64,000 nucleotides of DNA, taken from Calditrichia bacterium (GTDB lineage Bacteria; Calditrichota; Calditrichia; RBG-13-44-9; J075). The notes under the pieces are model-generated. The model worked only from the letters and a program-made list of their open reading frames with translations, did no database searches and was not told the DNA's origin. This document shows positions 16,459-43,664 of the stretch, piece after piece. The stretch lies in assembly GCA_028284905.1 (NCBI GenBank), contig JANQQU010000022.1, positions 248,001-312,000 of the forward strand, read 5' to 3'. The translations under genes were made by a program, and so were the position numbers. Numbering within the stretch: the stretch's first letter is position 1; each line of letters opens with the position of its first letter.

Positions 16459-16914
16459 TTATTTCCATAAATCGCTTTCCTGGAATGTAATCGCATGTTC
16501 TTGCAATAATCCGGTATATTCGCTTTCAAATTTCCAACATTGGTGATGAATTTTTTGCCGCTCAATATATCTGGATACCTGTGCTAAATCCTTGTATCCA
16601 ACAGAAAAAACGCCATACCCGGTTTGCCAACGAAAAAGAGTAGGGAGGTTAAAAGTACGATTTATCCACCCGGATGAATAAGCCTTAACATCTCTGACCA
16701 TGGATGCTGTAGAATATGCTGTTTTGATATCCATTAAAATATGGACATGATCGCTAGTGCCATTAACGCAGTGTGCGAAACCGTATTTGTTGTTGATGAC
16801 CCGAGCGATATATTTATGCAGGCGCAGCTCCATATCACCGGGCTGGATGATCTTCTGTCGGTATTTTGTTCCGAATACGATGTGTAGGTAGTGCCGGGAG
16901 TAACTGTGAGCCAT
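16459..16914 (-). CDS. REP-associated tyrosine transposase (RAYT, IS200/IS605-like TnpA)
   Basis: A 151-residue Y1-type single-strand transposase, a normal length for the family. It begins with the typical SYSRHYLHIVFGTKYRQ, has the metal-binding HxH as DHVHILMD, and a catalytic-Tyr region GYGVFSVGYKDLAQVSRYIERQKIHH. The start is ATG 16914, with GGAGAAGGAG just upstream; an ATG at 16932 is in frame but is part of that leader. No TnpB partner is present. Two kinds of hairpin repeat lie in the 570 bases upstream. This layout matches domesticated RAYT genes, which are linked to the spread of REP sequences, more than an active insertion sequence. The enzyme appears intact. Confidence 0.9.
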   Translation of the reverse strand: MAHSYSRHYLHIVFGTKYRQKIIQPGDMELRLHKYIARVINNKYGFAHCVNGTSDHVHILMDIKTAYSTASMVRDVKAYSSGWINRTFNLPTLFRWQTGYGVFSVGYKDLAQVSRYIERQKIHHQCWKFESEYTGLLQEHAITFQESDLWK

Positions 16915-16927
16915 TTGTTCTCCTTCT

Positions 16928-16948
16928 CCCACTCCTGCATGGAATGAG
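16928..16948. repeat. REP-like hairpin repeat X, copy 1
   Basis: CCCACTCCTGCATGGAATGAG, an imperfect hairpin immediately upstream of the RAYT gene. The same element, in perfect form, occurs at 17165-17185. Confidence 0.6.
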
Positions 16949-17068
16949 TTATGATTAAGGTTTCTAAGGGGCGTCTCTAAAGGACCTTGTTCTATTTTAT
17001 TCTATAATTGCATTTACGAGAGGATTTTTAGAATCTTTTTCAAAGGAGTTGACATTTACCAATACGAT

Positions 17069-17135
17069 TACTAATCACTAAGCCCGTCAGGGCGCCCCAA
17101 GTTAGTCCAGGACGTTAGTCCAGGCTGGATGTCGG
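17069..17135. repeat. REP-like repeat Y, copy 1
   Basis: A 67-base element running from TACTAATCACTAAGCCCG to GCTGGATGTCGG, containing GGGCGCCCCAA and a small hairpin GGAC-GTTA-GTCC. It matches copy 2 (17230-17295) over nearly its full length with scattered differences, and resembles a third copy at 43487. Confidence 0.75.
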
Positions 17136-17164
17136 GAGAGTATAAGTCATTGATTGCTCGTATG

Positions 17165-17185
17165 CCCATTCCTGTACGGAATGGG
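17165..17185. repeat. REP-like hairpin repeat X, copy 2
   Basis: CCCATTCC-TGTAC-GGAATGGG, a perfect 8-bp stem with a five-base loop. It is followed about 20 bases later by the palindrome GGGACGTCCC. Related to the X copy in front of the RAYT gene. Confidence 0.65.
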
Positions 17186-17229
17186 TTTGGTTGGTTTTAA
17201 TGAGGGACGTCCCTGCGGGATTTTTAAAT

Positions 17230-17295
17230 TACTAATTCCAAGCCCGAAAGTGCGCCCCAAACTAGGCCAGGACGTTAGTCCAGGCCGGGCGTCGG
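17230..17295. repeat. REP-like repeat Y, copy 2
   Basis: A 66-base near-copy of the element at 17069-17135: TACTAATTCCAAGCCCG, then GCGCCCCAA, CCAGGACGTTAGTCCAGG and GGGCGTCGG. Lies 161 bases from copy 1 in the same orientation. Confidence 0.75.
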
Positions 17296-17485
17296 CGAAT
17301 ATCATTATTTAATTTCCCGGTCAGATCATCCGGCGATAAAAGACCACAATCAAACATCGCCCCTTATATTGTAATCTGTCACATAAGTTATTGTTTTGGG
17401 AACTATATTTTCATATTATCATCTAACTTTTATGCGGTTATTACGTTGTGTAGTGGATGATTAAACGAGGTCAACAATCACGTCT

Positions 17486-43447: not shown

Positions 43448-43486
43448 CAGCAATACAAATTTGAAGCAAATCAGAATAAACAATTC

Positions 43487-43541
43487 CAGCCCGCAAGGGC
43501 GCCCCGAAACGAGCCTGGGATGCAATCCCGGGCGGAATACG
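43487..43541. repeat. REP-like repeat Y, third copy
   Basis: AGCCCGCAAGGGCGCCCCGA followed by a GCCTGGGATGCAATCCCGGGC-type hairpin. It has the same plan as the Y elements at 17069 and 17230. Its small hairpin is GGGAT-GCA-ATCCC where those have GGAC-GTTA-GTCC, so the stem is kept although the bases changed. Confidence 0.6.
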
Positions 43542-43560
43542 TAAACAAACCCAAAAGAAA

Positions 43561-43585
43561 AAGCCTGCCAAAATTTGACAGGCTT
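43561..43585. terminator. Bidirectional terminator next to tRNA-Pro(CGG)
   Basis: AAGCCTG (43561-43567) pairs with CAGGCTT (43579-43585), with more pairing inside. T-rich tails lie on both sides: TTTTTT rightward and TTTTTCTTTT leftward. It ends the minus-strand tRNA transcript and could end the DUF1801 mRNA too. Confidence 0.8.
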
Positions 43586-43590
43586 TTTTG

Positions 43591-43664
43591 TCGGGGCGAG
43601 AGGATTTGAACCTCCGGCCTCACCGTCCCGAACGGTGCGCGCTACCAGGCTGCGCCACGCCCCG
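43591..43664 (-). tRNA. tRNA-Pro (anticodon CGG)
   Basis: A 74-base gene read on the minus strand. The acceptor stem CGGGGCG pairs with CGCCCCG. The D arm contains GCGC AGCCTGGTA GCGC. The anticodon arm is CACCG-TTCGGGA-CGGTG with anticodon CGG, reading codon CCG. The T arm is GGAGG-TTCAAAT-CCTCT, with discriminator A. The 3' CCA is not encoded (the sequence continues ACA). A second tRNA-Pro lies 2.5 kb away on the same strand. Confidence 0.95.

Follow-up and report, generated by a model that had tools for sequence, protein, structure and literature searches.

The tnpA gene and its product

The window, i.e. the whole stretch of 64,000 nucleotides of Calditrichia bacterium DNA that was analyzed, contains a tnpA gene (16459..16914, minus strand), which encodes a Y1 HUH transposase of 151 aa with subclass-1.2 motifs when read from the ATG at 16914. 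A longer ORF of 157 aa (16459-16932, minus strand) opens with a GTG at 16932 as an alternative start. The ATG is the likely start, since it is preceded by AAGGAG and since, in the alignment, conservation with the one other homologue found in the same genome (C24, 41% identical to the window TnpA) begins at its Met. The ORF is intact and matches PF01797 (E 7.5e-25) as well as the NCBIfam IS200/IS605 family (69.9 bits, cut-off 55). The closest solved protein is the ISHp608 TnpA (2a6m, 2.9e-9), onto which both the HUH pair and the Tyr align, DHVH on DHIH and YIERQ on YIENQ, and this match is enough to assign the predicted fold. An earlier note on this DNA had claimed an intact Y1 transposase with HxH and Tyr motifs and had set the presence of the catalytic Tyr on alignment as a test beforehand; both are borne out by the PF01797 match and the alignment with ISHp608 TnpA.

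Regarding its classification, the window TnpA features DHVH, WQ and Y---Q--HH at a length of about 150 aa. In the published scheme (Quentin 2018, PMC6006769), Y---Q--HH is the signature of TnpA_Y1 subclass 1.2, which occurs mostly in Cyanobacteria and Bacteroidetes at low copy number and for which no REP is listed, while Y---NP is the class-2 motif. Judged by motifs and length against these descriptions, the protein is assigned to subclass 1.2 and is not a canonical class-2 RAYT. The designation as RAYT in the earlier note hence has to be abandoned, as Y---Q--HH is present, Y---NP is absent and there is no GTAG-tagged REP.

Two-hairpin elements at the locus

Four elements adjoin the gene, and every X or Y element carries a second hairpin, B, besides hairpin A. 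X1 (16928..16992, plus strand; hairpin A 16928-16948), located 14 nt upstream of the tnpA ATG, is degenerate, with two mismatched pairs and a folding no better than that of shuffles (z +1.4). It is followed by Y1 (17076..17134, minus strand; A core 17107-17124, B 17082-17093), X2 (17165..17220, plus strand; A 17165-17185, B 17210-17220; z -2.3) and Y2 (17236..17294, minus strand; A core 17267-17284, B 17242-17253, imperfect). X is thus oriented along the plus and Y along the minus strand, and in tnpA orientation the order reads Y2+, X2-, Y1+, X1-, tnpA. Because tnpA resides on the minus strand, the elements lie upstream of its start, and the earlier statement that the gene is "followed by" them has to be reversed. 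Dispersed repeats flank the gene as is known for class-2 RAYTs, and in the window they occupy its upstream side alone; within 500 nt on the downstream side no B-like hairpin was found.

Read from A to B, Y consists of about GCCnGGAC-TnnC-GTCCnGGC, followed by TA, a short linker and GCCC..GGGC, while X2 comprises CCCATTCC..GGAATGGG, a linker of 24 nt and TCCC..GGGA. The X2 stem CCCATTCC/GGAATGGG at 17165-17185 is good and unique within the window, and none of 100 shuffles contained such a stem. The Y copies at 17080-17135 and 17240-17295 agree at 47 of 56 positions, and the Y core without mismatch occurs twice versus 0.01 times expected. Accordingly, the earlier view of clearly repeated X and Y elements stands for Y and for the X2 stem but not for the degenerate copy at 16928. 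X2 and Y1 together form an inward-facing inverted pair (17074..17220), interpreted as a REPIN-like unit, which folds as a single structure (z -3.5, with 0/200 shuffles as good) and has the same orientation as the pairs of related genomes described below. What had been taken for two alternating families is in fact this one X/Y pair and half pairs beside tnpA, and as an example of its kind the locus is modest and partly decayed. A third Y copy of the window (43483..43541, minus strand) adjoins a tRNA gene, with copy and gene spanning 43483-43664 (Rfam tRNA, 62.2 bits, L192 1609-1682).

Distribution of Y and X in the genome

Since the strict two-hairpin rule yielded 9 sites in 1.23 Mb of this genome versus 1, 2 and 5 in shuffles, covariance models were used instead. 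A model built from nine Y copies revealed 33 Y places in 8.55 Mb at E<=0.002, 24 of them new. Of these, 30 were examined: 26 are intergenic, versus 8.7% expected, and two lie beside tnpA and 28 elsewhere, most copies being single rather than paired. In an alignment of these 30 copies, which is fitted to the model, helix A shows changes on both sides in 7 of 9 pairs, and the observed covariation was reached by no shuffle. As to the foot, 24 of the 30 copies carry TA after hairpin A (TAG on the other strand); as a rule it is preceded by C and not by AC, and the foot therefore deviates from GT[AG]G.

BLAST with the whole Y/X region retrieved one weak extra site. A search for X allowing up to 2 mismatches returned nine forward sites (control 1), two of which are the copies at the locus. 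X was considered as a dispersed family and rejected: of the seven sites outside the locus, the contexts of four (L245, L246, L247 and L249) were covered and none was REP-like, the remaining three being one in C85 and two in C92. Within this scope, i.e. up to 2 mismatches and four of seven contexts, X is confined to the tnpA locus. The genome-wide occurrence and the intergenic position envisaged by the earlier note consequently hold for Y, which is not confined to the locus, and fail for X. Calditrichota belong to the FCB group, and in proposing a REP-spreading unit for a genome of FCB type the earlier note went in the right direction, though the protein is no canonical RAYT and X is not dispersed; both the domestication and the spreading are putative.

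Some further repeats were encountered. A short palindrome of about GGTCCGTAGGACCG occurs just after Y in L187, L196, L200, L201 and L202 and may represent another dispersed repeat family. A third repeat type, CTATAAATATnTCGTCCCTACGGGACT, is clustered in L048, L049 and L051 and is possibly the repeat of another transposase. Moreover, a near-tandem repeat of GCGCGAAACTCGGGACT-like units of ~24 nt occupies about positions 270-870 of L004, in a coding-looking region beside the paralogous tnpA.

Two-hairpin elements around tnpA homologues in several phyla

The locus set comprised 109 further loci with a tnpA homologue and the two of the own genome, 111 in total; L093 and L154 represent one locus, which is counted twice in the motif, hairpin, orientation and RF01687 locus counts. 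Y---Q--HH was present in 105 of the 111 loci, this duplicate included, while Y---NP was found in none of the 111, the window protein included. In noncoding DNA, simple hairpins amounted to 2.56 per kb within 500 bp of tnpA versus 0.46 beyond 1 kb. Two-hairpin elements numbered 80 in 43.3 kb of noncoding DNA within 500 bp, compared with 3 in 33.0 kb beyond 1 kb, which corresponds to a 20-fold higher density near the gene. With the strict rule applied ahead of the noncoding filter, a near element was present at 47 of the 111 loci and absent from 64. The orientation of the elements, drawn from one and the same scan as this strict-rule enrichment and counted for those 79 among the 106 near elements whose linker measures 9-15 nt, follows a consistent rule: upstream of tnpA the closest element occupies the minus strand at 25 of 28 loci, downstream the closest one occupies the plus strand at 29 of 30, and where both sides carry an element, tnpA is bracketed in the (-,+) arrangement at 15 of 16 loci.

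In elements chosen for pairing, the A stems vary freely between genomes with the pairing kept; covariation in the corresponding alignment A7 is inflated by this selection. Among 38 elements of relatives, 21 have CT after hairpin A and 19 have it after hairpin B; read in the B-to-A direction, the strand carries AG in front of hairpin A and often in front of B as well. On the gene side of A, a B-like hairpin accompanies 12 of 39 elements versus a background of 6.7%, and by eye such hairpins are also discernible in pairs devoid of tnpA. The CGTC repeats of Di Nocera, described with stems of 8-9 bp and a CCA tail, were considered as a possible identity of the elements, since B is often preceded by CG, but appear less probable given that description.

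Because MAFFT set hairpins of 19 and 20 nt out of register in the alignments A3, A5 and A6, a further model, R2, was restricted to 18 loop-3 elements. Its support for the association with tnpA is weaker inside the own class, with 12/31 versus 0/9 for at least 10 copies (p 0.025) and 16/31 versus 2/9 for at least 3 copies (p 0.12).

Correspondence to the Acido-Lenti-1 motif

The two-hairpin element is the same as the one modeled in RF01687 (Acido-Lenti-1), an Rfam model of independent origin that is filed as sRNA of unknown function and has a gathering score of 37 bits. The two window copies Y1 (17.0 bits) and Y2 (15.8 bits) score under this cut-off; among 20 scanned Y loci of the own genome, RF01687 matches at the element in 16 (E<=10) and passes the gathering score in two. 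In a scan of 100 of the 111 tnpA loci, RF01687 accounted for 32 of 35 Rfam matches, all 32 passing the gathering score and falling in 17 loci. Of these 32 matches, 27 lay no more than 500 bp from tnpA, or 23 of 24 without the repeat-rich L073, where such positions account for 21% of the sequence. The strand rule is weaker for RF01687, with nearest matches that are downstream on plus (8), upstream on minus (6), downstream on minus (5) and upstream on plus (4).

At the level of genomes, at least 5 copies of RF01687 were present in 15 of 35 TnpA-positive versus none of 25 TnpA-negative genomes among 60 relatives, kinship being ignored. Among 30 named TnpA-positive genomes, 27 had matches at E<=0.001, 20 passed the cut-off and several carried over 100 copies. 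A similar distribution emerged for 60 genomes from the phylum to which L126 (titled Acidobacteria bacterium) belongs, where, again ignoring kinship, RF01687 occurred in 12 of 13 TnpA-positive versus 5 of 47 TnpA-negative genomes, with a Spearman coefficient of 0.80 between RF01687 and TnpA. The plainest exceptions are G125, with 25 copies and no tnpA found, and G131, with tnpA and no copies found. In the TnpA-positive genomes of this phylum, 12 among the 123 RF01687 matches listed lie within 500 bp of tnpA, versus 0.13 expected; this proximity list used 45 of 54 tnpA matches, leaving out the nine weakest (E >= 3.4e-9), which the genome counts kept.

Inverted pairs as units

Close pairs, defined as RF01687 matches at most 300 nt apart among the matches listed (150 per set), display a strong preference for one arrangement. 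Among the matches listed, the first set comprised 22 pairs in (-,+) versus 2 in (+,-) orientation and 8 on the same strand, and the set from the L126 phylum contained 20 inward-inverted pairs versus 1; G075 belongs to both sets, and two of its pairs are included in both counts. Dispersed inverted pairs, the hallmark of REPINs and BIMEs, are therefore present in the relatives. Pair spacing is near constant within a genome, with 130-137 nt in 6 of 7 pairs of G061. Alignment of 20 pairs indicated by eye that conservation extends over the whole unit including the spacer, with G061 and G037 as the clearest cases, and that B-like hairpins also occur in the centre of the pairs. Of the three copy comparisons made in G061, two show 75-78% identity within the pair and 28-38% beyond it, and the other goes from 91% within to 62% and 30% beyond. 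In G037, similarity often runs past the pair, with one clean right boundary (L260). Since the orientation of the pairs equals that of the bracket round tnpA, the pairs without tnpA resemble the tnpA unit in a non-autonomous version.

Interpretation and alternative explanations

The association of tnpA with two-hairpin repeats is well supported, and a plausible mechanism behind it is a REPtron- or REPIN-like mobile DNA system run by a subclass-1.2 Y1 HUH transposase with the two-hairpin element as its substrate, a reading that we consider probable. With somewhat more reserve, and at slightly better than even chances, Acido-Lenti-1, rather than being an RNA gene, would be the DNA that subclass-1.2 TnpA uses as substrate, forming a phylum-crossing class-1 REPtron with miniature two-hairpin ends, of which inverted pairs with or without tnpA would be the mobile units.

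Such a system shares with the class-2 REPtrons of TnpAREP/RAYT (REPs, BIMEs, REPINs) a low-copy Y1 gene flanked by inverted palindromic repeats and the dispersal of these repeats as inverted pairs in intergenic DNA. It differs from them in its class-1 (subclass 1.2) Y---Q--HH motif, a (T)AG instead of a GTAG foot and two hairpins per element. Published members of subclass 1.2 (PMC6006769) resemble the present proteins in their length of about 150 aa, DH[VI]H, WQ, Y---Q--HH and low copy number but were described without REP, whereas the system considered here is linked to repeats and extends to further phyla. A search of the literature, with most subscription journals and all preprints outside its reach, found three papers that name Acido-Lenti-1 and one more through its accession, but none connecting Acido-Lenti-1 with subclass 1.2 or either of them with REPs; given this limited reach, the absence of such a link is no proof of novelty.

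Alternatively, the elements could be structured RNAs or transcription terminators, in line with the "sRNA" label of Rfam, and their closeness to tnpA would be incidental. Weinberg (2010) rated the motif as "probably" RNA, and a passage of PMC13298647 (2026) ventures the guess that Acido-Lenti-1 regulates proteases. Two stable hairpins with paired changes, and the CT that often follows B, sometimes with a T run, would suit such a function. This explanation is nonetheless unlikely in view of the clustering of the elements at tnpA, their co-occurrence with the gene, the constant inverted pairing, copy numbers of over 100 in some genomes and the presence of both orientations in tandem gene pairs (6 same, 10 opposite).

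Another scenario posits that a tnpA-bearing IS lands between the two A hairpins of pre-existing repeats without spreading them. Insertion of IS into REPs is known (PMC1525189, PMC8450116), and insertion at the centre of a pair would yield the same bracket. However, the repeats are mostly absent from genomes without tnpA (found in 5/47 versus 12/13 with it), separate ends of tnpA were not seen, and the gene-side B-like hairpin (12/39 elements versus 6.7% background) recurs, by eye, in pairs without tnpA, which renders this scenario very improbable. The hairpins at IS200 ends point the same way, and so do both hairpins of one element, which, together with the protein homology and the shared HUH and Tyr residues, speaks for an ordinary insertion sequence of the IS200/IS605 type (subclass 1.1; IS608) with its own end hairpins and derived MITEs, the least probable of the three alternatives, as the elements bracket tnpA in inverted rather than direct orientation, Y---Q--HH replaces the plain subclass-1.1 motif and the genes are low-copy and diverged, with just 41% identity between both tnpA copies in this genome. 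By comparison, copies of subclass 1.1 IS are near identical (99.4%; Quentin 2018, PMC6006769).

A proposed REPtron-like model and its significance

In the favored REPtron-like model, the substrate would be the two-hairpin element, which is ~46-60 nt long and composed of hairpin A, with 8-9 bp and a stem sequence varying by genome, and hairpin B, with 4-5 bp and the pattern YCCC..GGGR, joined by a linker of usually about 13 nt; on the strand read from B to A, a (T)AG foot lies 5' of hairpin A, often with AG before B. Two inverted elements with A inward and B outward would constitute the unit, whose autonomous form would hold tnpA between the elements and whose non-autonomous form would be a pair of 130-200 nt without tnpA, and single elements also persist in intergenic DNA. 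By analogy with the TnpAREP proteins of E. coli, S. maltophilia and Marinomonas, TnpA would bind the hairpins in single-stranded DNA with the (T)AG foot as a guide, and its Tyr would cleave nearby and then transfer the strand, thereby mobilizing the element. The proposal of (T)AG as guide derives from this analogy: according to PMC8266576, which also gives the guide rule for IS200-type ends, TnpAREP, guided by the foot, cuts REPs in single-stranded form close to the hairpin, commonly at CT, and in S. maltophilia cleavage was abolished when the third and fourth GTAG bases were altered.

If this model is true, the unexplained Rfam family Acido-Lenti-1 gains a concrete mechanism, and subclass 1.2, published without REP, gains a candidate substrate. 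REP-type repeats would then exist in two branches of Y1 transposases with different foot rules, one of them with a two-hairpin design, and comparing both branches would directly test how guide and hairpin set specificity. High-copy genomes have been identified and are ready for assays.

At four of the tnpA loci (L115, L171, L109 and L153), two families of A stems alternate round the gene, largely one per strand, in a manner resembling X and Y; left and right elements may be recognized differently.
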